From an uncultured Desulfatitalea sp. (GTDB taxonomy: Bacteria > Desulfobacterota > Desulfobacteria > Desulfobacterales > Desulfosarcinaceae), in the NCBI GenBank assembly GCA_937868765.1, contig CALMNL010000015.1, forward strand, positions 1 to 64,000: 64,000 bases of DNA. The letters run 5' to 3'. The translations under genes were made by a program, and so were the position numbers. Below are positions 39,153-63,281 of the stretch, one piece after another. Numbering within the stretch: position 1 is the stretch's first letter; every line of letters begins with the position of its first letter. Under the pieces are notes generated by a model that had not been told where the DNA came from, ran no database searches, and saw nothing but the letters and a program-made list of their open reading frames with translations.

Positions 39153-40685
39153 ATGGACAAACCGCAGATGACGGAACCGACGACCGAAGGAGGGCTCTCG
39201 CTCCTTCCTTACCTGGAGAGTCGGGCGCCCGGCTTGCGCCTGACCTTGACCGAGATGGCAGCGGTGTCTGGTGAGGTCTCGCCGTCCGCCGCCCGGGAGC
39301 CTTTCGGGCCTTTCGCCGCCCTCTGGCATGCACACGTCACTTTAGACGGTCGTAAGGCGCTGTCCGAACTCTTTCTGCTGATCCAGCCCGACCAATACGG
39401 CCAGGCGGTATCAGGGCCGCCTGTCACCAATCCCGCGGTGGAAGCCTTCTGGCAAAAAGTGGCGGCCCGGCTCGAGACTCGCAACGAGAATCGCGGGACG
39501 CTGCTGCTGCCCGGCCAAACGGACGACCAGGGACGATTGATCGCACTGCGGCCCTTATTCTACTGCCGTCATCGACGGCGGTACGCACATCCGGCGTGTC
39601 CGCAGTGCGGTGGCGGGCTGACCTTGTGCCGGGACGATCAAACGCTGCGGGCCGCGGGCCTCCAGGCCTACAGCGAAAGCCTCGTACGTTACCTGTGGTG
39701 CGCTGCCTGCCACGCCGAGCCGATATTTTACGCGCGGGAGTTATCAACTCCGGCGCCAGATCGTCTGCGCGACGCCCGGTACCTGGTGGAAGCCTTCAGC
39801 CGTCTGCTCGGGCGGGAAGAGCTGGGGGGCGAGTTGCCTTGCGTCGGCTGCCCCGAAGCGACTGCCTGTTACGGCCCCGATACCCTGGTGCACCAACGCA
39901 TGGCGCCGCTCTGCTTCTTTCCTTTCCACATGCTCGTGCTGCCCGCACCCACCATCGAATCGCCCTACCTGCTCACCTTGTGGCGCAACGACCTGCAGCG
40001 GGAAATCGAAACGCTCCTGGTCGATACGGTTCCGTCGCCAGCGGCTGCGCCGCCGCAGGTACCGCTGCCTGTCCATGAGCAGGCGGCGCAGGCCCCCGGG
40101 GATGCGGATGAACGCATCGCCGCCATCTTGCGTACGATTTTATCCCAGTGGCCGGAGAAAGACGCAGCAGCCCGGACGGAGGCCTCTGCGGCGCCACCAC
40201 CTTTCGAAGCCAAGCCCCCGCAGGCGCCGCGGCCCGATGAAGACGGCGATTCCGTGGAGACGATCATCCTGGGTGCTGCGCCCAAACCGGGGTCGCCACC
40301 CACGCCTGCGATGCCGACCCCTTCGCCGGACGCCGAAAAGACGGTGCTGATCCAGCCGCCGCCAGGCCCGGCCAAGCAGAGCGCTGCGCAAGATTTGCAG
40401 GCCACGGTGCTCATTTCGCCTTTCCAGGCCGGCCAGGCCCGGACGCCTGCCGACGAAGAGCTCGAGAAAACGGTGTTGATGGGCGCTCCGGAAGCGCCGC
40501 CGAAAGCCGCCGCCGACGATGATCTGGCCCAAACGGTGCTCATGACGCCGGCGAAACCGACACCCGGGCCGCCCCGGACGCCGCCGCCCCTCCCGCCCGA
40601 CCCACCGCCGCCGGCACCCGATGACTTGGCCGAGACGGTGATCATCTCCCCGGACCCGGCCAAAGGCAGGAGGCCCAAGCCATGA
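39153..40685 (+). CDS. T6SS-linked Cys-rich protein with six Thr-motif repeats
   Basis: I do not recognise a named family. The product is about 510 residues. Residues 1-290 form a globular part with nine cysteines, three as CxxC (C149/C152, C183/C186, C230/C233) plus C138, C159 and C239. This suggests zinc-ribbon or iron-sulfur sites. Residues 295-510 are Pro/Ala-rich and carry six copies of an acidic-xx-TV[IL][LIM] motif with threonines T370, T397, T418, T440, T461 and T495. Such 'EKTVLM'-like motifs resemble phospho-threonine sites recognised by FHA domains. The gene leads the T6SS operon and overlaps the next gene by 4 nt. The start could also be ATG 39168. A role in phosphorylation-controlled T6SS assembly is inference. 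Confidence 0.7.
   Translation: MDKPQMTEPTTEGGLSLLPYLESRAPGLRLTLTEMAAVSGEVSPSAAREPFGPFAALWHAHVTLDGRKALSELFLLIQPDQYGQAVSGPPVTNPAVEAFWQKVAARLETRNENRGTLLLPGQTDDQGRLIALRPLFYCRHRRRYAHPACPQCGGGLTLCRDDQTLRAAGLQAYSESLVRYLWCAACHAEPIFYARELSTPAPDRLRDARYLVEAFSRLLGREELGGELPCVGCPEATACYGPDTLVHQRMAPLCFFPFHMLVLPAPTIESPYLLTLWRNDLQREIETLLVDTVPSPAAAPPQVPLPVHEQAAQAPGDADERIAAILRTILSQWPEKDAAARTEASAAPPPFEAKPPQAPRPDEDGDSVETIILGAAPKPGSPPTPAMPTPSPDAEKTVLIQPPPGPAKQSAAQDLQATVLISPFQAGQARTPADEELEKTVLMGAPEAPPKAAADDDLAQTVLMTPAKPTPGPPRTPPPLPPDPPPPAPDDLAETVIISPDPAKGRRPKP
40260..40637 (+). repeat. Six-fold threonine motif region
   Basis: The encoded units are VETIILGA, EKTVLIQP, QATVLISP, EKTVLMGA, AQTVLMTP and AETVIISP. Threonines are spaced 27, 21, 22, 21 and 34 residues apart, within proline-rich linkers. 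The linkers vary, so the protein motif rather than the DNA is conserved. Confidence 0.8.
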
Positions 40686-41404
40686 CCGATGCTCCCCAGA
40701 CGCCCCAGCTGGCCGCTGAAATCCGACGGCTCTATCAGGCCGATCCGTCCGTTGCGCCCCAGGCCATCACGGCAATGCTGCGCGCACGGCTTGCCGATCG
40801 CCCGGCCGCGGATGGCAAGCGGGCTGTGCAGGAACTCCTGGCCCAATTCGCTCCCCGGGAGGCCAAGGCCGAAGCGAACGCCGACAACGAGGTGCTGACC
40901 CGGGTGGTGGGGCTGCTGCTGGGCCGCAAGGTGACCCCCGATGATCTCTCTTCGGAGGAAATGCTTCGGCGGCTGGCCCAATCGCTCAATACGATATTCA
41001 ATGCGCTGAACCAGTTGGTCCGGGTCATCAACGCCACGCTTTCGGGCGGTGACGGCGAGCAGACCATTCGCCAGTTCATCGGCGAGCATCTGGAGGGCGA
41101 GGACCAGACCCAGTCCCTGGAAGCCTACCTGGGGCGCATCAACGACGCATTTCTCGCCAGCCAGGAGGCGTTCAAGAAAGCTGTCACCGCCAAGGTCGGT
41201 CAGATCATGCAGGCTATCGATCCGGAAAAGGTCGCGGCCGAACGAAGCGGCGGACTGAAGATCGGCCCCCTGCGCAAGGCCGAAGATTTCGACATCCTGA
41301 AAGAGAAGATCGACCGGATCAAACGCTGGTACGATTCGGGCCGCTTCATGGAAGATTTTCTGCGTGAATTCGAGAAACATTGTCAGGCGTTCAGCCGCAA
41401 GTAA
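40682..41404 (+). CDS. TagH C-terminal-domain-like T6SS accessory protein
   Basis: This is a 240-residue soluble, helical protein. Its second half (LNTIFNALNQLVRVINATL; EAYLGRINDAFLASQEAFKKAV; WYDSGRFMEDFLREFEKHCQAF) resembles the 'type VI FHA' C-terminal domain of TagH/Fha proteins. No FHA domain precedes it; instead residues 1-90 are a helical segment rich in Ala and Arg. TagH acts in threonine-phosphorylation control of T6SS assembly. With the upstream protein providing threonine motifs, the two may be a split or rearranged TagH system. It is coupled to the gene before (4-nt overlap) and lies 13 nt from tssJ. Confidence 0.6.
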   Translation: MTDAPQTPQLAAEIRRLYQADPSVAPQAITAMLRARLADRPAADGKRAVQELLAQFAPREAKAEANADNEVLTRVVGLLLGRKVTPDDLSSEEMLRRLAQSLNTIFNALNQLVRVINATLSGGDGEQTIRQFIGEHLEGEDQTQSLEAYLGRINDAFLASQEAFKKAVTAKVGQIMQAIDPEKVAAERSGGLKIGPLRKAEDFDILKEKIDRIKRWYDSGRFMEDFLREFEKHCQAFSRK

Positions 41405-41417
41405 GGAGGTCGTTGCG

Positions 41418-41939
41418 ATGAAAGGAAGAACGTTAGCTTGGTTGGGATGGGTGGTTTTACTGCTGGCAGCCTGTGCCTCCCAGCCGCCGCCGCAGACCGT
41501 TTGGAGCTATGAAAAAGATGCGGTGACCATTCATGTCAAGGCCGACGCAAAACTCAATTTCGACGATGGGATGCCCCACACCCTGGTGCTGTGCATTTAC
41601 CAGCTCCGGGACCCAAATACTTTCAACCAACTGGCCGACGACATGCCCGGCATTTACAAGCTGCTGGAATGCGGGCTTTTCGACGGCAGCGTGGCCACGG
41701 CCAAGCGGCTCATCATCCACCCGGGCCAGGACATGGACGTGCGCCTGGATCGCGCCGAGGGGGCCAAGTACGTGGCAGCCGTGGCGGGATACTACGAATT
41801 GCAGAAAGGACGCATGATCCGGCTCTACGAAATCCCCAGCGTGGTGGAGACCAAGGGGTTTTTCAAGAAGACCACCACCTCCAAGCCCGGCCCGTTGAAG
41901 GTCGATCTGCAGTTGGGACCGTCGCAGATCGGACAGTAG
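41418..41939 (+). CDS. tssJ: T6SS outer-membrane lipoprotein TssJ
   Basis: This is a 173-residue lipoprotein. The signal peptide WVVLLLAAC has its lipobox at residues 17-20 with the lipidated C20. The transthyretin-like sandwich follows: HTLVLCIYQLRDPNTFNQLA, the loop region CGLFDGSVATAKRLIIHPGQ and AKYVAAVAGYYELQ. TssJ anchors the TssJLM membrane complex to the outer membrane by binding the TssM periplasmic end. AAGGAGGT precedes the ATG by 7 nt. Confidence 0.93.
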   Translation: MKGRTLAWLGWVVLLLAACASQPPPQTVWSYEKDAVTIHVKADAKLNFDDGMPHTLVLCIYQLRDPNTFNQLADDMPGIYKLLECGLFDGSVATAKRLIIHPGQDMDVRLDRAEGAKYVAAVAGYYELQKGRMIRLYEIPSVVETKGFFKKTTTSKPGPLKVDLQLGPSQIGQ

Positions 41940-42046: not shown

Positions 42047-43432
42047 ATGGAGAAGGCGCTTTTCTGGCACCAGGGATTGTTCTTGCAGCCCCAGCATCTT
42101 CAATTGGGCAGCCGTTATCAGGAGGAGCTGAACCTGCCCCTCAAGCAGTATCTGCAGCCGCACTTCTGGGGCGTCGGCCGTTACAGTGTGCCGGCGGGCG
42201 CCCTGGGAAACCGCAGCTTTCATCTTTCCGATGGCTGCTTTCTCTTCCCGGACATGACCTATGTGGAACTGCCCGGCAATGCCGTGGTCATGCCGCGCTC
42301 GTTCGAGAGCGACTGGGAGCAGGGGAGCCAGCATTTCAATGTCTACCTGGGCCTGCGCAAGTTCAACGCCGCCGGCCGCAACGTCACCGTGGTGGCCGAC
42401 GAGAGCCACGTGGTGGACGTCAACACCCGCTGGGTAACGGCCAATGTGGCCGCCCAGGTGCCGGACCTGCACATGGACGGTCCGCCCGCCGATGTGCAGA
42501 GGTTGACCTATCTGCTCCGGATCTTCTGGGAAAGCGAAAAGGATCAGCTGGGCGACTACGAGCTGATTCCCATCGCCCGCCTTACGCGCGACCAGGATCA
42601 GGTGCGCCTCTCGCCCGCCTACGTGCCGCCCTGCCTTTCGGTGGGCGGCGACGACACCCTGTTCAAAATCATCCGCGAAATCCGCGACCAGATCGGCGCC
42701 CGGGCCCGTCAGCTGGAGGCGTACAAACGAGACCGCGGCCTGCATTCGGCCGAGTTCGGAGCGCGGGACATGGTCTACCTGCTGGCCTTGCGTTCGCTCA
42801 ACCGTTATGCTTCTCTGCTCGGTCACCTGACGGCGTCCCGTCAGGGCCATCCGTGGTCGGTCTACGGCCTGGTGGGCCAGCTGATCGCCGAGCTTTCGAC
42901 ATTTTCAGGGGAGATCTCATACACGGGAGAAGATCAGGCGGGCCAGCGGCTGCTGCCCGACTACGCTCATCTGGACCTCTATGGTTGTTTTGCTTCGGCA
43001 CTGGCGCTGGTCACCCAGTTGCTCGATCAGATCACCGCCGGTCCGGAGTACATCCTGCCCCTGATGTTCGACGGCACCTATTTTGGTGCCGAATTGCCGC
43101 CGGCCATCTTCGACGGCCGCAACCGGTTCTATCTGGTGATGGAGACCGAGTCCGATCCCCAGCAGGTGCTGCCGGCCCTGGAGCGCATCGCCAAGCTGGG
43201 CAGCCGCGAGTCGCTGCCGATCCTCATCGCGCGTTCTCTTTCGGGGGTGGGAATGGCCCATCTGCCGGCCCCGCCCCAGGAACTGCCACGGCGCGCCCGT
43301 GCGCTCTACTTCCAGGTGGACCACCATAGCGACCAGTGGGCCCAGGTGCAGCGGGGCAAGAATCTGGCCCTGTACTGGGACACGGCCCCGGCGGACCTCA
43401 AGATCGAACTGATGGCCGTGGGAAGGAGTTGA
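42047..43432 (+). CDS. tssK: T6SS baseplate protein TssK
   Basis: This is a 461-residue cytoplasmic connector between baseplate and membrane complex. The family start FWHQGLFLQPQHLQ is clear, followed by NRSFHLSDGCFLFPDMTYVELP, a helical middle (ARDMVYLLALRSLNRYAS) and the C-terminal beta domain ending NLALYWDTAPADLKIELMAV. GGAGGATAGGGGG precedes ATG 42047. It is separated from tssJ by 107 nt without a terminator. Confidence 0.95.
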   Translation: MEKALFWHQGLFLQPQHLQLGSRYQEELNLPLKQYLQPHFWGVGRYSVPAGALGNRSFHLSDGCFLFPDMTYVELPGNAVVMPRSFESDWEQGSQHFNVYLGLRKFNAAGRNVTVVADESHVVDVNTRWVTANVAAQVPDLHMDGPPADVQRLTYLLRIFWESEKDQLGDYELIPIARLTRDQDQVRLSPAYVPPCLSVGGDDTLFKIIREIRDQIGARARQLEAYKRDRGLHSAEFGARDMVYLLALRSLNRYASLLGHLTASRQGHPWSVYGLVGQLIAELSTFSGEISYTGEDQAGQRLLPDYAHLDLYGCFASALALVTQLLDQITAGPEYILPLMFDGTYFGAELPPAIFDGRNRFYLVMETESDPQQVLPALERIAKLGSRESLPILIARSLSGVGMAHLPAPPQELPRRARALYFQVDHHSDQWAQVQRGKNLALYWDTAPADLKIELMAVGRS

Positions 43433-43435
43433 CGT

Positions 43436-44116
43436 ATGCGCCTGTCCGATTGCTTTATGGAGATCATCGCATATACCGCCCTGGCGGTGCGCAGGGAGGG
43501 TGGCCCGGCGCCGGCATACCAGCAAGTGCGCTCCGACCTGGGACGGCTCATCACCCAGAGCGAGGCGCGCTTCGAGCAGGGGCGTTTCAACCGTGAAGAT
43601 TTCGAACTGGCTCGTTTCGCCGTATTCGCCTGGGTGGATGAAACCATCCTGGCTTCTCCATGGGAAGGCCGCACCCAGTGGCAGCGCGAGCAGCTGCAGC
43701 GTCAGTATTATCAGACCGCCGATGCGGGCGAACTCTTCTTTGAACGGCTCAACACCATCGGCCCCCACCAGCGCGACGTGCGCGAAGTCTACTACCTGTG
43801 CCTGGCCCTGGGGTTCACCGGCCAGTACTGCCACGAGGGAGACGACTTCATGCTCGAACAGTTGCGGGCCTCCAACCTCAAGCTGTTGAGCGGCAGCTCC
43901 ATGGGCGTCCCCTCCATCGAGAAAGATGAGCTTTTTCCCGAGGCCTATCCCCGGGGCGACATCGAACCGGCCGGCCGCATCCGGGGCAGGGGACGCATCT
44001 CGGCGCTGCCCATCCTGGCTGCAGTGCTGCCGCCGATCTTCGGCGTGGTGCTGTTCTTCGTCTATCAATTCATCCTGGGCAACATCGGTGCCACTCTCAT
44101 GGGCACGGTGCAATAG
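43436..44116 (+). CDS. tssL: T6SS inner-membrane protein TssL (DotU/IcmH)
   Basis: The 226-residue protein has a cytoplasmic helical hook (CFMEIIAYTALAVRREGGP; FAVFAWVDETILASPWEGR; YYLCLALGFTGQYCHEGD) and a single C-terminal membrane segment (LPILAAVLPPIFGVVLFFVYQF). It has no fused OmpA/peptidoglycan-binding domain, so cell-wall anchoring must come from another protein. It contacts TssM and TssK. It begins 3 nt after tssK. Confidence 0.94.
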   Translation: MRLSDCFMEIIAYTALAVRREGGPAPAYQQVRSDLGRLITQSEARFEQGRFNREDFELARFAVFAWVDETILASPWEGRTQWQREQLQRQYYQTADAGELFFERLNTIGPHQRDVREVYYLCLALGFTGQYCHEGDDFMLEQLRASNLKLLSGSSMGVPSIEKDELFPEAYPRGDIEPAGRIRGRGRISALPILAAVLPPIFGVVLFFVYQFILGNIGATLMGTVQ

Positions 44117-44125
44117 GGGCAACAG

Positions 44126-47100
44126 ATGTTGAGAGCGCTTTTTAAAGGAGTACTGGTCTTCACCCTGCTGGCCTTGCTGATCTTGCTGATCTTCGGCCTG
44201 ACCCTGTGGATCGGCTGGCCCTGGTGGGTGGGGTTCTTCCTGCTGGTCGGCGTGGCGGGCGCGGCCCTGGCCGCGGTGCTGGTCCGCAAGATGCTGCTGC
44301 GCCGCAAGGAGCAGATGTTCGTCCAGGATGTCATCGCCCAGGACGAGTCCAACCGCCAGCGCATGGCGCCCAAGGAGCAGGACACGGCCCGGGAGCTGCA
44401 AGCGCGCTGGAAAGAGGCCATCGATGCCCTGCGCAAATCCCACCTGCGCAAGCAGGGCAATCCGCTCTATATACTGCCCTGGTATATGGTGATCGGCGAG
44501 AGCGGGTCGGGCAAGACCACCGCCATCCAGAGCGCCCGGCTCACCTCCCCCTTTGCCGAAGTGAGCCGGACCTCCGGCATCTCCGGCACGCGCAACTGCG
44601 ACTGGTGGTTTTTCGAGCAGGCCATTATCCTGGATACGGCCGGCCGTTATGCCCTGCCGGTGGATCAAGAGCGCGACAAGGACGAGTGGCAGAAGTTTCT
44701 GACCCTGCTGGCGCGTTTCCGCAAAAAAGAGCCGCTCAACGGCCTGGTGGTGACCATTGCCGCCGACCGCCTGGCCCAGGCTTCGGCCGAAACCCTGCGT
44801 GAAGACGGCCGCACCCTGCGCAAACGCATCGAGGAGCTGACCCGGGTGCTGGGGGCCCGTTCGCCGATCTATGTGCTGGTGACCAAGTGCGACCTGATCC
44901 AAGGGGCCACCCACTTCTGCGAACAGCTGCCCGAACCCTCGCTGAACCAGGCCATGGGATATGTCAACCAAAACCTGAGCGCCGATGCCGGTGCGGTGAT
45001 CGCCAAAGCCGTGGCGACCGTGGGAGATCGGTTGCGGGAACTGCGTCTGCTGTTGCTGCACCGGCTCCAGAACCGCTCGGCGGCCGCCGCCATGCTGCTT
45101 TTCCCCGAAGAGCTGGAGAAATTGAAGGACGGGCTGGCCGCCTTCGCCCAGACCATCTTCCAGGAGAATCCCTACCAGGAGACGCCGCTTTTGCGCGGCA
45201 TCTTTTTCAGCAGCGGCCGCCAGGAGGGCACTCCCTTTTCCCATTTTCTCAGCGCCCTGGGGCTGATCCAGGCCCGGGACGTGCTCAAGGGCACCAGCAA
45301 GGGGCTTTTTCTGCACGACTTCTTCGCACGCATCCTGCCCACGGACCGTAATCTGTTCCGGCCCACCAGCCATATGCAGGAGTGGCGGCGCCTGACCCGC
45401 AACCTGGGGCTCACGGCCTGGGTTGCGGTGGTGGTGGCGGTCTGTGGTTTGCTCAGCTACTCGTTCGTGAAGAACCTCAACGCCCTCTCCGACGTGCGCC
45501 GGGAGTTCGACAAGCCGGCCCTGCTCCAGGGCGAGTTGATGGCCGACGTCATGGCCATGGACCGCTTCCGTGAAGCGGTGCTGCAGGTCGAGCGCGGCAA
45601 CCGCAACTGGTGGATCCCGCGGCTGGGCTTGAACGAGAGCCTCGCCATGGAAACGGCCTTGAAGCAGAAGTACGTGAATCTGTTCCGCAACGGTTTCCTT
45701 CAGAGTTTCGACAAAGGCATGGCCGACCGCATGACCACCTTCGACGCGACTACTCCCGGTCCGGTGTTCGGCGCCCACGTGGCCCACCTGGTGCGGCGCA
45801 TCAATCTGCTCAAGGCGCGCTTGTCCCGGGAAGATCTGGGGCAACTGGCCGGCTTGCCCCAGCCAGCCTACACCACGGCGCTCGTGGGCCGCGGCGAAGT
45901 GATCCCGGAGATGCAGGAGAAGATCGGCAGCGAGTACCTTTACGCCCTGCTCTGGGAAAGAGACAATGATCGGTTGAGCACCGAATTGACCCATCTGCAG
46001 ACCTGGCTCAAACACTTGATGACCCGGCCGGGCCTGATGCTCAACTGGCTGGTGGATTGGGTCAACAGCGAACCGGATCTGGCGGCGGTCACGTTGCAAG
46101 AGTTCTGGGGCGGCGATCCGCGGATCGAGGCCGCCACGGTGCCGCCGGCCTTCACCCAGGCGGGCAAGGCGCGTATCGACGCGGCCATTGCCGAGATCGA
46201 GGCGGCGCTCTTCGATCCGCTGATCGTGGCGGCGCCCAAAGCCGAATTCGCAGCCTGGTACCAGAAGAATTTCGTGACCGCCTGGCAGGGGTTCGGTCTT
46301 TCGTTCGACCAGGGTCTCAAGCTGCTGCCCCAAAAAGAGCAATGGCAGGCCGTGGCCAAGCGCATCCCCGGCGACAGCGGCCCCTATCAAGGGCTGATCC
46401 GGCGCATTACCGAAGAGTTCGACGCCTTCGATCCCGACGCCGGGGTGCCGGCCTGGGTGGGCCTGGCCATGGATTGGCAGGCGGTGCGCAAAGAGGCCTT
46501 GGAAGGCAAAATCATCGATCCCCAAAAGGCGGGGCTGGTGCAGAAGGCCACCCGGGCAGTGACCGCGAATATCAAAAAGGCGGAAAAAGCCTTCGGGGCC
46601 AAGATTCGTACCCCCATGGGCGCACAGGCTCAGATCAATGCGGCCAAGGCCATGAGCGCCTATCAGCAGGCGCTGGAAGCGGCCGCCAAAGCGGCCGATT
46701 CCCGCAAAGTGGCTTTCGACCTGGCCACAGCGCTCTTCCAACAGGACCCGGCCACCGGGGAGGCGCCGTTCTATGCCGGACAGCGGGCCCTGGAAGAACT
46801 CAATACGATCATGTCCGATCGCCGGGACGAGAATGAAAAGATCTTCTGGGACCTGGCGGCCGGTAACCTGCGTTTCCTTCAGAAATACACCATCCGGGAA
46901 ACGGCTTGCGAGCTGCAGTCCTTATGGGAACGGCAGGTGCTGGTGGAACTCCAGGACGTGAGCGCCGACCGGGATATGGCCCAACTGATGATGGGCAGCG
47001 ACGGGTTTGCCACCCGGTTCCTCAAGGGACCGGCCGAACCGTTCGTGGCCCGGGGCCTGGCCAAAGGATACTACGCCAAACGGGCCATGGAGATGGAGAT

Positions 47101-47605
47101 GCCCTTCGAGCCCGCTTTCCTGACCTACCTCAGCAAGGGCGCCCAGGCCGCCCGACCGGCAAAAAGCAGTTATCTGGTAAAGATCCAGGCGTATCCGACC
47201 GATACCAACCGGGAAGCCAAAATCCAGCCCCACGCGACGGTCTTGGAACTGCAGTGCGCGGACAGCAAGGTGCGGCTGGAAAACTTGAACTATCCGGTGG
47301 CCAAGGATTTCAACTGGTCGCCGGACAATTGCGGAGATGTGCTCTTCCAAATTTCCGTGGGCAACCTGGTGCTGAGCAAGAGCTATACCGGCCGCAACGC
47401 CTTTGCCCAGTTTCTCAGTGACTTCAAGAGCGGCCAACGGACGTTCCGGCGCCAGGAGTTCCCCAATGACGAACCGGCCCTGCGGCGCATGGGGATCGAT
47501 TTCATCAAGGTTAAGTACCAGTTCCAGGGAAACAACGAAGTGCTGGCGCTCATTCAGAATTCACCCGGTGCGCCGCCGCGGAAGATCACCCCATGCTGGG
47601 AATGA
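44126..47605 (+). CDS. tssM: T6SS membrane complex protein TssM (IcmF)
   Basis: This is a 1159-residue inner-membrane protein. Two N-terminal membrane segments lie at about residues 5-52 (FTLLALLILLIFGLTLWIGW and WWVGFFLLVGVAGAALAAVL). A cytoplasmic NTPase-like domain follows, with an intact Walker A GESGSGKTT near residue 126. A third membrane segment (TAWVAVVVAVCGLLSYSF) is near 430, then the long periplasmic part whose end binds TssJ (SYLVKIQAYPTD; NWSPDNCGDVLFQISVGNL). Length is usual. The intact Walker A suggests an ATP-dependent type. The stop overlaps tagF by 13 nt. Confidence 0.95.
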   Translation: MLRALFKGVLVFTLLALLILLIFGLTLWIGWPWWVGFFLLVGVAGAALAAVLVRKMLLRRKEQMFVQDVIAQDESNRQRMAPKEQDTARELQARWKEAIDALRKSHLRKQGNPLYILPWYMVIGESGSGKTTAIQSARLTSPFAEVSRTSGISGTRNCDWWFFEQAIILDTAGRYALPVDQERDKDEWQKFLTLLARFRKKEPLNGLVVTIAADRLAQASAETLREDGRTLRKRIEELTRVLGARSPIYVLVTKCDLIQGATHFCEQLPEPSLNQAMGYVNQNLSADAGAVIAKAVATVGDRLRELRLLLLHRLQNRSAAAAMLLFPEELEKLKDGLAAFAQTIFQENPYQETPLLRGIFFSSGRQEGTPFSHFLSALGLIQARDVLKGTSKGLFLHDFFARILPTDRNLFRPTSHMQEWRRLTRNLGLTAWVAVVVAVCGLLSYSFVKNLNALSDVRREFDKPALLQGELMADVMAMDRFREAVLQVERGNRNWWIPRLGLNESLAMETALKQKYVNLFRNGFLQSFDKGMADRMTTFDATTPGPVFGAHVAHLVRRINLLKARLSREDLGQLAGLPQPAYTTALVGRGEVIPEMQEKIGSEYLYALLWERDNDRLSTELTHLQTWLKHLMTRPGLMLNWLVDWVNSEPDLAAVTLQEFWGGDPRIEAATVPPAFTQAGKARIDAAIAEIEAALFDPLIVAAPKAEFAAWYQKNFVTAWQGFGLSFDQGLKLLPQKEQWQAVAKRIPGDSGPYQGLIRRITEEFDAFDPDAGVPAWVGLAMDWQAVRKEALEGKIIDPQKAGLVQKATRAVTANIKKAEKAFGAKIRTPMGAQAQINAAKAMSAYQQALEAAAKAADSRKVAFDLATALFQQDPATGEAPFYAGQRALEELNTIMSDRRDENEKIFWDLAAGNLRFLQKYTIRETACELQSLWERQVLVELQDVSADRDMAQLMMGSDGFATRFLKGPAEPFVARGLAKGYYAKRAMEMEMPFEPAFLTYLSKGAQAARPAKSSYLVKIQAYPTDTNREAKIQPHATVLELQCADSKVRLENLNYPVAKDFNWSPDNCGDVLFQISVGNLVLSKSYTGRNAFAQFLSDFKSGQRTFRRQEFPNDEPALRRMGIDFIKVKYQFQGNNEVLALIQNSPGAPPRKITPCWE

Positions 47606-48324
47606 GCACGCGATCAGCGGTATGGCAATGGCAGGCAGTGGGCAAGCACCCCACGGCCGCCGATTATATCCAGGTGATGGGCGGCACCCCGCTGACCAAG
47701 GCCTTGGGCGAATGGATGACCAAGGGGTATGACCAGTGGCAGGCAGGGCGGCCCGGCGCGCACGAACCGTGCTCCTTTCGCTTCTGGCTGCGGGGCGGCC
47801 AGAAGGAACATCTGGTGTGCGGGGTGGTGCGCGACAGCAGCGACCGCATCGGGCGGCCCTTTCCCCTGATGCTGATGGGCGAGGGCACCCTCAGGGGGTG
47901 GGAGCAGCGCTGGGCAAGCCTGCCCCTGGTGCTGGAAAAGACCTGGGCCCGCATGGAGCGACTGGCGGTTCATGGCTACGGGGATCTCAAAGAATTTGGC
48001 GAGGAGCTGATGCAGTTGACGGCGCCCCGGGATCAGGACGGCGAGCCGGCTGCCAAGACGCCGCCATCGGCGACCAGCGATCCGGTGTGGCAAACGTGCC
48101 AGGCCGATCTGCGGCAGAGCGGCCGGGCGACGATGCCCCTGCACGCGCCCCCGGGCCAGGATCCGAGCCAATACGCCGCCAACCGGCATGCCGGATTGGA
48201 GCGTTGTTGCACGGAAACTCCCCGGGCGGTCTTCATGGGCGGCAACCCCCGGCGGTCATGCCTGACCGTGATCCTGCAACCATTGACCGCTGCCGATTTC
48301 GTGACCTTATGGAGTGTTGCATAA
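47593..48324 (+). CDS. tagF: T6SS-associated protein TagF
   Basis: This is a 243-residue protein of the TagF/ImpM family, a post-translational repressor of T6SS in Pseudomonas. The family start is visible in WQWQAVGKHPTAADYIQVMG, with FRFWLRGGQKEHLVCGVV and GRPFPLMLMG. It is not fused to a PppA phosphatase as in some species, and neither PppA nor PpkA is seen in the window. Its start overlaps tssM and its stop overlaps tssA by one base. Confidence 0.88.
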   Translation: MLGMSTRSAVWQWQAVGKHPTAADYIQVMGGTPLTKALGEWMTKGYDQWQAGRPGAHEPCSFRFWLRGGQKEHLVCGVVRDSSDRIGRPFPLMLMGEGTLRGWEQRWASLPLVLEKTWARMERLAVHGYGDLKEFGEELMQLTAPRDQDGEPAAKTPPSATSDPVWQTCQADLRQSGRATMPLHAPPGQDPSQYAANRHAGLERCCTETPRAVFMGGNPRRSCLTVILQPLTAADFVTLWSVA

Positions 48325-49949
48325 TGGATATTTCTGCCCTGGGCAAAACGCCGATCAAAGCGGAGGCTCCCTGCGGTGCGGAAGCGCGCTACGAGCCTGA
48401 ATACGAATCGGTCCAGACCGAAATCGACAAGCTGAGTTCGCCCACCGCCTCCGGGCAGGTGGCATGGGACCGGATCGTCGAGAATGCGGCCGTGGTGCTC
48501 GAGAAGAAATCCAAAGACTTGACCATCGCCGGGTACCTGGCCGTGGCCCTGGTGATCACCCGCCAGATCGACGGGCTGGACCAGGGGGTGGCCGTGCTCC
48601 ACGATCTGCTGACCACTTACTGGGAGGGGTTGTATCCCAACTTGAAGCGCATGCGCGGACGGGCGGCCGCCCTTCAGTGGTGGCTGGAGCGCACCGAAAC
48701 CGAGCTGCAAAAACTCAGCCCGGCCCCGCTGCCCGCTGAACAGGTCGCGCGGATCAAGGCCAACCTGGCAGCCATCGATGCCTTGCTGGCCGAGAAGATG
48801 CCCGACGCGCCGATGCTGCGCCCCCTCCAGCGTCGGGTCGAAGCCTTGCCGGTGCAGGCGGAGGTTCAGGTCCCAGCGCCGGCGCCCGCGAGCGCACCGG
48901 CCCCCACCACCGCTTCGGCTGCCCCGGCGGCTGCGGCGCCCCCGGGCGGAACCCAACCCGCCGCGCCGGCCCCGACAAGTCCCCCGGCAGAGAAAGCGGC
49001 CGATGACCCCCTGAATGCCCCCATCGGAGACGAAACCCAAGCCGGCCGGGCTGCCGATGCCGCCTTCCAACGCCTGCGCCAGACCAGTCTGTTTCTGTTG
49101 CAGCATGACCTGAAGAATCCGCTTTCCTACCGCTACCGGCGCATCGCCGGGTGGGCCAAGGTGACCTCGCTGCCGCCGCACAAGGACGGTGCTACCCAGC
49201 TCGTGCCCCCACCGCCTCCGGTGGCGGAAGCGCTCTGTGCTCAGCGGGACCAGGGCCAGCTGGAAGCACTGATCCAGAATGCCGAACAGAAATTTTCCCA
49301 GTACATTTTCTGGCTGGATCTGAACCGATATGTGGCCGAAGCCCTCGGCGACCTGGGATCGGGCTGCGAAGCGGCGCGACGGGCGGTATGCCAGGAAACT
49401 GCCGCATTTCTGGAACGTTATCCGGATTTGGCCACCTTGCGTTTCTCGGATGGCACCGCCTTCGCCGATCCCCAGACCAAAGGGTGGCTCAAGCGGCTGC
49501 GGCCGGCAGGCCCCGAGGGCGGCGAAGCCGCCGCTGGGCCGACGGCCGGTTCGGCGGCCGGAACCGCGGCCGATCCCATCGCCGCGGCCCTCGAACAGGC
49601 CCGGGCCCTGGCGCGCAAGAAGGAGCTGGCGGCGGCCGTGGCGTTGCTGCAGCAACCCATGCAGCAGAGCGCAGGCCAGAGCTCCAAGCTGCGCTGGCGC
49701 CTGGCCATCGTCGAGCTGTTGCTGGAGGCCAAAAAGGCGCCTATGGCCCTACCGCATCTGGAACGAGTGTTGGCCGATATCGACACCTTCCGCCTGGAGC
49801 AGTGGGACCCGGCCCTGGCGCTGGAAGGCTTCACCATCGCCTGGCAGGGGTTCAGCGCCGCGGGCGGAGAGGGTAAAGGCCGAGCGGCCGGACTGCTGCA
49901 GCGCATTGCGGTGATCGATCCGGCCGGCGCGTTGCAGCTGGGAGGCTGA
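48324..49949 (+). CDS. tssA: T6SS cap/baseplate protein TssA
   Basis: The 541-residue protein has the ImpA N-terminal domain: DWDRIVENA-like helices, LAVALVITRQIDGLDQGV and LLTTYWEGLYPNLKRMRGRAAALQWW broken by polar turns. A Pro/Ala linker runs from about 180 to 240. The C-terminal part is a VasJ-type domain (FWLDLNRYVAEALGDLG; LRWRLAIVELLLEAKKAPMAL). TssA primes and coordinates tail tube/sheath growth. The one-base overlap with tagF implies co-translation. About 125 nt of non-coding sequence follows before tssB. Confidence 0.9.
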   Translation: MDISALGKTPIKAEAPCGAEARYEPEYESVQTEIDKLSSPTASGQVAWDRIVENAAVVLEKKSKDLTIAGYLAVALVITRQIDGLDQGVAVLHDLLTTYWEGLYPNLKRMRGRAAALQWWLERTETELQKLSPAPLPAEQVARIKANLAAIDALLAEKMPDAPMLRPLQRRVEALPVQAEVQVPAPAPASAPAPTTASAAPAAAAPPGGTQPAAPAPTSPPAEKAADDPLNAPIGDETQAGRAADAAFQRLRQTSLFLLQHDLKNPLSYRYRRIAGWAKVTSLPPHKDGATQLVPPPPPVAEALCAQRDQGQLEALIQNAEQKFSQYIFWLDLNRYVAEALGDLGSGCEAARRAVCQETAAFLERYPDLATLRFSDGTAFADPQTKGWLKRLRPAGPEGGEAAAGPTAGSAAGTAADPIAAALEQARALARKKELAAAVALLQQPMQQSAGQSSKLRWRLAIVELLLEAKKAPMALPHLERVLADIDTFRLEQWDPALALEGFTIAWQGFSAAGGEGKGRAAGLLQRIAVIDPAGALQLGG

Positions 49950-60683: not shown

Positions 60684-61193
60684 ATGGGCACTAAGCGTTT
60701 CATTGAAAAAGCGATCACCGAAAGCCAGTCGGCCCCGTCGACACCTTGTATCGGCCGCCTCGCCGGCACGAACGCACAGCATGAAATTCTGGTGGAGTAC
60801 GAAGGCCAGGGGCCCTTTGCCGCCCGGCTTACCGCCGGCGTCAAGCGCAGTGAGCTGATGAAAGACGAAAATCGCGCCAGCGAGGTGCTGCTGGTTTTCG
60901 AAAAGGGGGATATCCGTCGGCCGATCATCCTCGCGCTCATGGAAGATCCCTTGGAGAGTATGGTATCCTTCGAACTTCCTCCTGACGAGGCACCGGCGCC
61001 TGAGGACAGGCGAGACCTGCTGGTGGATGGCAAGCGCATCACCATCGAGGCCGAAGAAGAAATTCTGCTCAAGTGCGGGCAGGGCAGCATCCTGATCCGA
61101 AAGGACGGCAAGATCATCGTCAAAGGCACCGACCTGCTGTCCAGGTCATCCGGCCGCCAGCGGATCCGGGGCGCCAGCGTGGCCATCAATTGA
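60684..61193 (+). CDS. DUF6484 domain protein, VgrG-linked
   Basis: The 169-residue protein has an N-terminal DUF6484-like domain (CIGRLAGTNAQHEILVEYEG; VLLVFEKGDIRRPIILALM), a Pro-rich linker, and a C-terminal beta-helix-like part (RITIEAEEEILLKCGQGSIL, IRKDGKIIVKG). The latter mirrors the end of VgrG. Proteins of this type sit directly after vgrG in T6SS cargo operons and may extend or adapt the spike. Function is not established. Confidence 0.78.
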   Translation: MGTKRFIEKAITESQSAPSTPCIGRLAGTNAQHEILVEYEGQGPFAARLTAGVKRSELMKDENRASEVLLVFEKGDIRRPIILALMEDPLESMVSFELPPDEAPAPEDRRDLLVDGKRITIEAEEEILLKCGQGSILIRKDGKIIVKGTDLLSRSSGRQRIRGASVAIN

Positions 61194-61206
61194 AAGCCGG
61201 GAGCCC

Positions 61207-62241
61207 ATGCTGCAGCTCAAAAACCACACCCCATTCAAGGCCGCCATCGCCGTCTTTCCCAACGAGCGGGGCATCGACAGCCTGTATGTGGCCGTCAAGG
61301 CTACCTTCACCCTCGGGCGTTCGCTCGAACCCGCCGACGAACAAATCCCGGTCCGCATGGCCGACGAATACTGGGGCGAACCGGGGCAATCGAGTCTGAA
61401 ATACGCTTCTGAATTGCATCTCTCGAAACCATCCACCGATATCGTCATGATCGGACGGGCCTGGCCGCCCGGCGGCAAGGCCGTGACCAGGCTCGACGTC
61501 CAGCTCCAGGCCGCACGCCAGCGCAAGACCGTTCGCGTCTTCGGGGAGCGCCGATGGTTCAAGGCCGGCAACGAGCTGCGCATCACCGAACCGATTCCTT
61601 TCGAATCCATGCCGCTGCGCTACGAACGCGCTTACGGTGGCCTGCATGCGAAAGACCCGGAGGGGCGGCAGGTGCTCTGCGAGCCGCGCAACCCGGTGGG
61701 CGCGGGGTTTCGGGGCGATCGCCGCCCGGAGGAGCTTCACGGGCTGCCCCTGCCCAATCTGGAAGATCCGGCCCATCCCATCGCCCGGCCCGATGACAGA
61801 CCGCCTCCCGCCTGTTTCGGTTATGTGGCCGCGGCCTGGGAGCCCCGGAAATCCTTTGCCGGCACCTATGACGAGACCTGGGCCAAGAAGCGCGCGCCAT
61901 ATCTCCCGCAGGATTTCGATAGCCGCTATTTCAACGCCGCGCATCCGGACCTGGTATGCCAGGCATATTTGAAAGGCGGAGAGCCGGTGACCATGACCCA
62001 TCTTTCCCCGGCGGGTCCGCTGGCATTCAATCTGCCGCTCTGTGAATTCGATATTTCCGTTCAGGTTGCAGGTCGCATGGAACATCCGCCGCTCAACCTG
62101 GAGACCGTGCTGATCGAACCGGAGGAGAACCGTCTGGGCCTCCTTTGGCGGGCCGCCGTGGAATGCGATAAAATGGTGCTCAAGGTGAGCCAGGTGGATA
62201 TCGTTTTGAAAGATCTCACCGCGGATGGGGCAAGGATATGA
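61207..62241 (+). CDS. DUF2169 domain protein, T6SS adaptor candidate
   Basis: This 344-residue cytoplasmic protein shows the DUF2169 pattern: an N-terminal LKNHTPFKAAIAVFPNERG, LYVAVKATFTLG, MIGRAWPPGGK, RYERAYGG and EPRNPVGAGF, and at the end VLIEPEENRLGLLWRA. DUF2169 proteins are found between VgrG and DUF4150 PAAR-like genes and are thought to be chaperones or adaptors for tip-borne effectors. It overlaps the next gene by 4 nt. Confidence 0.82.
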   Translation: MLQLKNHTPFKAAIAVFPNERGIDSLYVAVKATFTLGRSLEPADEQIPVRMADEYWGEPGQSSLKYASELHLSKPSTDIVMIGRAWPPGGKAVTRLDVQLQAARQRKTVRVFGERRWFKAGNELRITEPIPFESMPLRYERAYGGLHAKDPEGRQVLCEPRNPVGAGFRGDRRPEELHGLPLPNLEDPAHPIARPDDRPPPACFGYVAAAWEPRKSFAGTYDETWAKKRAPYLPQDFDSRYFNAAHPDLVCQAYLKGGEPVTMTHLSPAGPLAFNLPLCEFDISVQVAGRMEHPPLNLETVLIEPEENRLGLLWRAAVECDKMVLKVSQVDIVLKDLTADGARI

Positions 62242-63281
62242 ACACGCGCGGCGCATCCATCCTGAGCATGGGCATGATGACGCCGGTGGGGCTCACGGCA
62301 CCGCAGAGTGCGGCCTCGGTGCGGGCGGGCATTACGCGGTTCGCCGAAACTTCTTTGTATGACAAGCGCTTCGAGCCCTTTACCATGTCCCTGCTCCCCG
62401 ATGAAGTGTTGCCGCCCTTGCATCCGGAATTGGAAAAGACGGTCGGTCTCACAAGCCGGCAGGTGCGCTTGCTGCGGCTGACCGCGCCTGCCTTGCAGGA
62501 AGCCCTGAAAGGCTTTCCCGATGAGGGCGGCATGCCGCTTTTTCTGGGCGCCCCCGAGCATTTGAAGGATCGCCCGCAGCCCTTGAACGATGGCTTCCTC
62601 GCGCAGCTCGGCCTGCAGTCCGGCGTCGGTTTCGATATCGCCGCCAGCAAGGTGATCTTCGGCGGCCGCGCCGCCGGACTCATGGCCCTGCAGGCCGCCA
62701 TGGCGTGTCTTGCGGCTGGAAAACACCCGGCGGTGCTGGCGGGCGGCGTGGACACCTACCTGGATCTCTACCTGCTCGGAACGCTCGATATGGAAGATCG
62801 CATTTTGGGCCAGGCTGTGATGGACGGGTTCATTCCCGGCGAGGGGGCGGGTTTTGTTCTACTTTCATCCAGTGGCGCATCGTTCGCCAGAATTTCTCCG
62901 GTCTTCACCGGTTTCGAAGAAGGCCATCTCGGCAGCGATAAGCCCTACCAGGGCGAAGGGCTGGCCACCGTTTTTGCGGAAATCTTCGGCTCCGGAGCCT
63001 TTGCGCAGCCGGTGCGGGAGGTATATTCGGCCATGAACGGCGAGAACCACTGGGCCAAGGAATGGGGCGTGGCCTTTCTCAGGAATCAAGGATCATTCGA
63101 CCCCAGCCACGGCATACACCATCCGGCCGACTGCCTGGGGGACACCGGCGCGGCCAGCGGCATCCTTCTGACCATCCTGGCCGCCTTCGGTATCGGCAAA
63201 GGCTATCGCCGCAGCCCGGCGTTGATCACCTGTTCGTCCGATCTCGGCAATCGCGCTGCCGTGGCAGTCGGTTCCCCATAG
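62238..63281 (+). CDS. Ketosynthase-fold protein lacking catalytic residues, T6SS cargo module
   Basis: This 347-residue protein has the thiolase/beta-ketoacyl-synthase fold: ILSMGMMTPVGLTAPQS at the start, AGGVDTYLD, the PGEGAGFVLL motif at 200-209 and LGDTGAASG at 300-308. Where ketosynthases have the nucleophilic cysteine (ACA[ST]), it reads FDIAASKVIFGG (132-143) without cysteine. Where they have GHxxGAAG, the histidine is replaced by D302. Condensing activity is therefore unlikely, and a binding or scaffold role is inferred. It is translationally coupled to DUF2169 and precedes DUF4150, so it probably handles the same cargo. Confidence 0.75.
   Translation: MNTRGASILSMGMMTPVGLTAPQSAASVRAGITRFAETSLYDKRFEPFTMSLLPDEVLPPLHPELEKTVGLTSRQVRLLRLTAPALQEALKGFPDEGGMPLFLGAPEHLKDRPQPLNDGFLAQLGLQSGVGFDIAASKVIFGGRAAGLMALQAAMACLAAGKHPAVLAGGVDTYLDLYLLGTLDMEDRILGQAVMDGFIPGEGAGFVLLSSSGASFARISPVFTGFEEGHLGSDKPYQGEGLATVFAEIFGSGAFAQPVREVYSAMNGENHWAKEWGVAFLRNQGSFDPSHGIHHPADCLGDTGAASGILLTILAAFGIGKGYRRSPALITCSSDLGNRAAVAVGSP

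Follow-up and report, generated by a model that had tools for sequence, protein, structure and literature searches.

As far as the accessible text of the papers cited here goes, T6SS phospho-control described so far turns on one Thr and one Fha protein. The TPP members are PpkA, PppA and Fha1 in Pseudomonas aeruginosa H1 and in Serratia, and PpkA, TagF-PppA, Fha and TssL-pT14 in Agrobacterium (PMC5995506, PMC3953482, PMC10482370). In these known systems the Thr that PpkA phosphorylates lies on Fha1 or TssL (PMC5995506, PMC3953482, PMC10482370). TagF binds Fha in other bacteria and thereby represses (PMC5995506).

The window (the whole stretch of DNA analysed, 64,000 nt from an uncultured Desulfatitalea sp.) carries a T6SS operon that opens with a gene for a 510-aa protein, called the ladder protein here after the row of threonine motifs in its tail (Table 1). 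The ATG of this gene sits inside a longer open frame, and the choice of start is backed by the orthologue in a genome of the same genus (G404), with which the alignment begins at MDRPQMTEP. No Pfam or NCBIfam family matched the protein. The family profile gave nothing significant against sequences of solved structures (best E 0.52), and no relative was found among the viral contigs searched. The 216-aa tail contains six motifs of the form acidic-xx-T-V/I-hydrophobic, where 0.013 are expected from 20,000 shuffles of the tail and the shuffle maximum was one. The earlier note had described three CxxC pairs, six evenly spaced acidic-xx-TV motifs and a position at the head of a T6SS operon. The CxxC pairs are present, and the core tss genes lie in the same cluster. 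The six motifs are also there, the first of them reading TIIL and not TV; they are roughly and not strictly even, since the distances from Thr to Thr are 27, 21, 22, 21 and 34 residues. The short segment between the Cys-rich part and the tail is still recognisable in the shortest family members and presumably forms a helix.

Table 1. Features of the ladder gene, of the T6SS genes that follow it and of candidate partner genes on contig C16 of the same genome (coordinates without a prefix are those of the window).
Feature	Coordinates	Strand	Basis or remark
Threonine-ladder (TV) gene	39153..40685	+	510 aa; opens T6SS operon
Cys-rich part (C138 to C239; nine conserved Cys, three CxxC pairs)	39564..39869	+	Alignments
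Junction region, site of the extra ~250-aa kinase-like domain in most orthologues	39948..40100	+	Domain absent here and in G404
Conserved short segment DADERIAAILRTILSQWP	40101..40154	+	I322 and W333 nearly invariant
Motif 1, DSVETIIL, Thr370	40248..40271	+	Motif scan
Motif 2, DAEKTVLI, Thr397	40329..40352	+	Motif scan
Motif 3, DLQATVLI, Thr418	40392..40415	+	Motif scan
Motif 4, ELEKTVLM, Thr440	40458..40481	+	Motif scan
Motif 5, DLAQTVLM, Thr461	40521..40544	+	Motif scan
Motif 6, DLAETVII, Thr495	40623..40646	+	C-terminal copy; nearly invariant in 18-row alignment
Stand-alone Fha C-terminal domain (T6SS_FHA_C, weak match), without FHA domain	40682..41404	+	Overlaps ladder gene by ATGA
TssJ	41364..41939	+	Pfam/NCBIfam
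TssK	42062..43432	+	Pfam/NCBIfam
TssL (DotU)	43436..44116	+	Pfam/NCBIfam
TssM (IcmF)	44126..47605	+	Pfam/NCBIfam
TagF-like	47593..48324	+	Pfam/NCBIfam
Open frame with TssA	47736..49949	+	Gene itself probably starts near 48318
Tandem-FHA protein	C16:9287-10237		Candidate reader
PP2C	C16:10573-11301		Candidate eraser
PEGA Hanks kinase	G000:C16:12232-13485		Candidate writer

The T6SS cluster extends to about 63.3 kb, and the window holds TssA-C, E-G and J-M, Hcp, VgrG, ClpV and a TagF-like gene. The latter and the neighbour of the ladder gene, a stand-alone Fha C-terminal domain (FHA-C), had been overlooked in the earlier note. FHA-C matches the last part of the T6SS_FHA_C domain at E 0.0012, below the Pfam cut-off. 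Its relative at locus L030 (E 5e-4) is also below the cut-off, and several other relatives exceed it. A search of the window's genome (G000) with T6SS_FHA_C at E 0.001 missed this FHA-C copy, and one at E 0.01 still missed it. Neither of the two proteins encoded in 39153-41404 has an FHA domain, and no FHA, Hanks kinase or PP2C match was found on the window's contig (C15). At the far end of the cluster (60684-63281) lie a DUF6484 gene, a DUF2169 gene and a weak ketosynthase-like gene, relatives of which come after VgrG in a Brocadia locus (L042). In five loci a gene of about 270-290 aa (ImpE/TagJ-like by eye; e.g., L030:10918-11742 and L033:19112-19918) is found between TagF and TssA; there is no room for one in the window. 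The genome has a second T6SS on contig C11 at about 39-48 kb (L138), with matches to TssE, F, G, J, K, L and M. No ladder gene was seen within the 20 kb read there, and a single-FHA protein (L005) is encoded about 6 kb before its TssE.

One protein search found ladder relatives in 20 of 394 other genomes of the phylum, and in a set of relatives the ladder protein has matches in 26 of the 78 other genomes. A scan of genome contigs gave 42 named ladder loci. The hosts, by record title, are mostly Desulfobacterota; Nitrospirota, Candidatus Brocadia and Geobacter are also represented. The earlier note had considered that the gene might turn up away from T6SS loci. It was found directly before a stand-alone FHA-C in 39 of the 42 loci (the remaining three contigs end in the ladder gene), and TssK is present in 21/21 ladder-positive genomes of the phylum. 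TssJ comes next after FHA-C in 38 of the 39 loci, and the other one (L032) ends at the contig edge. Where 1.4 kb or more remain after TssJ, TssK was found in 35/35 loci; TssL was found in 32/33 with at least 2.3 kb and TssM in 31/32 with at least 6 kb, L035 being the lone exception for the last two. No constant gene was detected upstream of the ladder gene across the loci. A six-frame scan of loci L030-L071, L084-L088 and L119-L150 yielded 38 ORFs with three or more motifs among 8,735; 34 of these belong to the ladder family by search, and the other four, each immediately ahead of FHA-C, are short genes or cut ones.

In the usual layout of the relatives the Cys part is followed by a middle domain (about 250 aa) and then by the short segment with its terminal Trp, and the TV tail comes last. 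The middle domain is missing from the window protein, from L012, L016/L066, L063 and L069, and from the G404 relative, and other members of the same genus have frames of 715-818 aa. Since two genomes (the window's and G404) agree, a recent loss is a likelier cause of its absence from the window protein than a misassembly. Six genomes (G007, G045, G140, G215, G237 and G434) have the short segment and TV motifs alone, in frames of 130-250 aa directly before FHA-C. As these short members keep nothing else, the ladder is the usual core of the family and the cysteines are dispensable. G408 is an exception: its short gene before FHA-C (L171:4916-5455) keeps the segment and lacks a TV motif. In L026 (G292) the main frame is without a motif, and motifs are found in another frame. 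An apparent fusion of ladder and FHA-C in G355 was rejected because the frame passes through an X.

The number of strict motifs differs widely among 48 proteins not flagged as truncated (none in one protein, one in two, two in three, three in seven, four in 16, five in 13, six in five and seven in one). The protein with no strict motif (L158) retains looser TV sites in its tail. Among 31 orthologue pairs more than 55% identical outside the tail, which overlap and are not independent samples, 118 of the 120 motif Thr that align are the same in both members (two not kept); a further ten fall in gaps. Other Thr and Ser of the tail are identical in 243/498 cases (134 in gaps), other residues in 1,538/3,031 and the residue at +1 of the motif Thr in 90/115. 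The codons tell the same: of the motif Thr codons in ten close pairs, 28 are unchanged, 13 differ synonymously and none changes the amino acid, and for the other Thr/Ser codons the numbers are 87, 29 and 84, respectively. The motif position is occupied by Thr 156 times and by Ser never in 40 proteins, in whose tails Ser and Thr are about equally frequent (571 and 525, respectively). All six motif Thr are retained in the 66% identical same-genus relative in G404. The motif Thr are under position-specific purifying selection, and the expectation of the earlier note, that the motif number would vary among orthologues and the Thr would be kept, was borne out. The consensus of 298 sites is an acidic residue followed by LEETV[IV][LI]SP. 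In the accessible text of the sources, a high specificity for pThr is ascribed to FHA sites (PMC3953482), so that the preference for Thr over Ser fits the demand that an FHA domain would impose. The pT+3 residue contributes to FHA selectivity, M and V being among those reported (PMC5549992).

The window protein has Cys residues at positions 138, 149, 152, 159, 183, 186, 230, 233, 239 and 254. Nine of them (the three CxxC pairs plus 138, 159 and 239) do not vary across the 38 rows of one alignment; in another, of 18 rows, two rows lack C159. The Cys part gave no significant Pfam match in 40 members (best E 0.018). It may have a weak zinc-ribbon tendency, and the nine conserved Cys may serve as structural zinc sites. 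The suggestion in the earlier note that the cysteines sense metal or redox state found no support, and some members of the family lack the Cys module altogether. For the middle domain no Pfam kinase match was obtained. HHalign of three distant members together against protein kinases gave P 9e-5 over 32 columns, and L028 alone gave 3.6e-5 over 97 columns. The merged profile reached 0.011, and the main family alone 0.09, which is not significant. With moderate confidence we regard the middle domain as kinase-like and probably inactive. An active kinase was judged unlikely because a DFG-like motif, and in the main family also an HRD-like motif, could not be recognised by eye.

Genes for the parts that the window lacks lie on another contig of the same genome (C16), where a tandem-FHA gene, a PP2C gene, a trypsin-like gene and a PEGA Hanks kinase gene stand side by side. 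The earlier note had stated that none of the known control genes is present; this is correct for the window and its contig, and does not extend to the genome. The genome contains eight Hanks kinase matches over the cut-off, none on C15, three PP2C (one beside the tandem-FHA gene) and eight ORFs with nine FHA matches between them. In the tandem-FHA family, the first FHA domain (FHA1) keeps GR and SRxHA in 20/20 sequences that cover it (21 aligned), and these intact pThr-pocket residues are counted in favour of the tandem-FHA protein as reader. FHA2 is without the serine and mostly without the arginine. Twelve tandem-FHA neighbourhoods were fetched from the 28 positive phylum genomes, favouring long contigs. 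PP2C and the PEGA kinase are near the tandem-FHA gene in 9/12, the trypsin-like gene in 8/12 and a TssC-like ORF in 7/12 (by sequence search, three checked with Pfam). In L139:16140-17714, L140:6591-8180 and L145:8618-10180 the ORF adjoining the tandem-FHA gene encodes a VipA-like and then a VipB-like part, that is, a fused and shortened TssB/TssC relative. Examples of the trypsin-like protein that accompanies PP2C and the PEGA kinase are L084:11298-12227 and L123:4204-5154. In G237 the trypsin-like and kinase genes adjoin the short ladder operon in opposite orientation. In 32 loci, several of which are close relatives, the sequence extends 970 bases or more ahead of the ladder gene. The nearest same-strand gene upstream is a Hanks kinase in eight of them and the tandem-FHA gene in two, and in the other 22 it is not a TPP gene. 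T[VIM][IVLM][ILMV] sites also follow the FHA domain in four of the eight FHA proteins of the window's own genome (L002, L004, L005 and L006), which may hint at an FHA-ligand code of broader use there.

The ladder and tandem-FHA genes co-occur. Among 395 phylum genomes the ladder was found in 21 (long query), tandem FHA in 28 and both in 20 (Fisher p 3e-26); among 79 relatives the numbers are 27, 29 and 24 (p 2e-12, or 3e-11 once the six genomes that also belong to the first sample are removed). All these p-values ignore shared ancestry, and the genomes are not independent samples. Starting from 27 of the 42 named loci, 27 genomes were reached, and tandem FHA was found in 24 of them; Nitrospirota, Geobacter and Brocadia are represented. 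At least G474 and G483 share coordinates with G436 and G301 and are thus not new genomes. The Brocadia match is weaker and contains stops within one piece. In 43 scorable TssK-positive genomes both genes are present in 25, the ladder alone in two (G093 and G272), tandem FHA alone in none and neither in 16. For this count G355 and G310 were set aside due to contig ends, and G007, G045, G140, G215, G237 and G272 were scored as ladder-positive after their short or cut genes had been seen. The loci were read for 11 of the 16 genomes with neither gene; a short ladder gene could be missed in G138, G168, G219, G302 and G343.

A ladder without a tandem-FHA match occurs in G093, G272, G401, G464 and G451 (weak ladder match), and in 3/27 of the named-locus genomes. 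A tandem-FHA match without TssK occurs in G198 (weak) and G319, neither of which gave FHA-C. Eight genomes with tandem FHA only were checked for a hidden ladder. FHA-C was found in four and not in G415, G465, G319 and G198; of the four, G355 and G434 have a ladder, the contig is cut in G418, and G408 has the helix without a motif. FHA-C was found in 0/12 controls without tandem FHA. Across the phylum genomes and the set of relatives, 43 genomes have both genes. The two are on the same contig in 18, in 15 of these not more than 45 kb apart; the more distant pairs are in G132 (about 221 kb), G396 (about 93 kb) and G417 (about 411 kb). The distance is at most 45 kb in four of the five genomes that consist of one or two contigs. 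In G000 tandem FHA lies on a different contig from the ladder operon. Strong full-length T6SS_FHA_C matches in frames of 439-461 aa were found in G141, G146 and G168, which have neither the ladder (long query) nor tandem FHA; at the G141 and G146 loci the FHA matches fall within the same frames. G325 and G343 have a stand-alone T6SS_FHA_C (frames of 207-242 aa) with no ladder match and no tandem FHA. The G325 locus was read and has no ladder, and a split Fha is therefore not always paired with one.

We consider it probable that the locus encodes a T6SS phospho-threonine switch with a split Fha, in which a multi-site ladder recruits an FHA reader to control assembly. The observed basis is the anatomy of the protein, the synteny, the Thr-specific purifying selection, the co-occurrence and the partial physical linkage of writer, eraser and reader; we infer phosphorylation, binding, activation as the direction of control, and the coupling role of FHA-C and the conserved helix. 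The ladder protein would offer several FHA-ligand Thr in a presumably disordered tail. A Hanks-type kinase, for which the PEGA kinase on C16 is the candidate, would phosphorylate them, and the first FHA domain of the tandem-FHA protein would bind the phosphorylated Thr. FHA-C next door would couple the complex to the TssJKLM machine, PP2C would reset the switch, and TagF would also oppose it. With several Thr the protein would act as a multivalent scaffold, and assembly might start sharply once enough of them are phosphorylated. The idea of a multi-site Thr substrate and FHA scaffold had been put forward in the earlier note; the Thr conservation, the T6SS linkage and the co-occurring kinase, PP2C and tandem-FHA set speak for it, and the phosphorylation step is predicted from sequence.

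Three other explanations were weighed against this switch. The phosphorylated ladder might bind another FHA protein, or the switch might be inhibitory and block assembly, the tandem-FHA protein then being a parallel part of the same T6SS type. Other FHA ORFs are available in the genome, the tandem-FHA gene is unlinked there, and the direction of control is unreadable from sequence. We nevertheless find this unlikely, given that tandem FHA, the sole FHA protein scored for co-occurrence, tracks the ladder across phyla and, in two loci, is the closest gene upstream of it. Somewhat more doubtful still is the view that the TV motifs are unphosphorylated short linear motifs, e.g., beta-strand peptides docking on a sheath-like or baseplate protein, with the fused TssB/TssC-like protein as the receptor. 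The motifs are indeed beta-prone with hydrophobic ends, and the TssC-like ORF near the tandem-FHA gene would supply such a receptor. A hydrophobic dock, however, should accept Ser, Val or Ile, whereas Thr is fixed (156:0 against Ser), and the +1 residue varies more than the Thr itself.

Shared descent of one T6SS subtype, with the ladder as a structural linker and the tandem-FHA set as a passenger, could also produce the co-occurrence. The ladder-type T6SS loci do have one conserved gene order in common, and the counts are not phylogenetically independent. Yet the tandem-FHA set is retained in several genomes although it is distant or on other contigs, and it accompanies the ladder in other phyla. 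The PP2C, trypsin-like and kinase genes stay together, the ladder Thr are under selection, and the ladder usually survives when other domains are missing (G408 excepted). We hold this explanation to be the least probable of the three.

The phospho-threonine switch may represent a broader class. Our confidence is lower here, only just on the positive side, that this is an undescribed class of T6SS control, in which a split Fha is combined with a ladder protein (often with a degenerate kinase-like domain) that would form a multivalent, countable phospho-scaffold and be read by a tandem-FHA protein whose gene comes with those of a dedicated kinase and PP2C, and which recurs across Desulfobacterota, Nitrospirota and Brocadia. 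If true, the interchangeable sites and the reader in trans make a natural system for studying how the number of sites sets the threshold or sharpness of assembly. For T6SSs of mostly uncultured bacteria it would also predict which control parts are missing from view, and it names the exact genes and residues. We found no description of the ladder and tandem-FHA arrangement in the literature searched (mostly outside subscription journals, and including the accessible part of PMC8993066), which suggests that the layout is new relative to known TPP control.

The resemblance to the known systems is partial. Like Fha/TagH proteins (FHA plus T6SS_FHA_C), FHA-C is encoded before TssJ and matches the last part of the domain; unlike them it has no FHA domain, and its T6SS_FHA_C match is a weak one. 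Rv2623 and Rv1747, FHA ligands with a conserved pThr site, share with the ladder a Thr with a suitable +3 residue, and a separate FHA reader is proposed here; in the part of the source available, those proteins have one mapped site, no ladder and no relation to T6SS (PMC5549992). As in TPP control, to the extent that its sources were accessible, a T6SS cluster with the Fha C-terminal domain and TagF is combined with a Hanks kinase and PP2C in the genome, and a Thr is the proposed FHA target. In TPP control the target described on Fha1 and on TssL is a single Thr each (T362 and T14), whereas the ladder is a dedicated protein with up to seven strict Thr sites; and the Fha of TPP control carries its own FHA domain, whereas here the Fha C part stands alone and the FHA is supplied in trans by a separate tandem-FHA protein.
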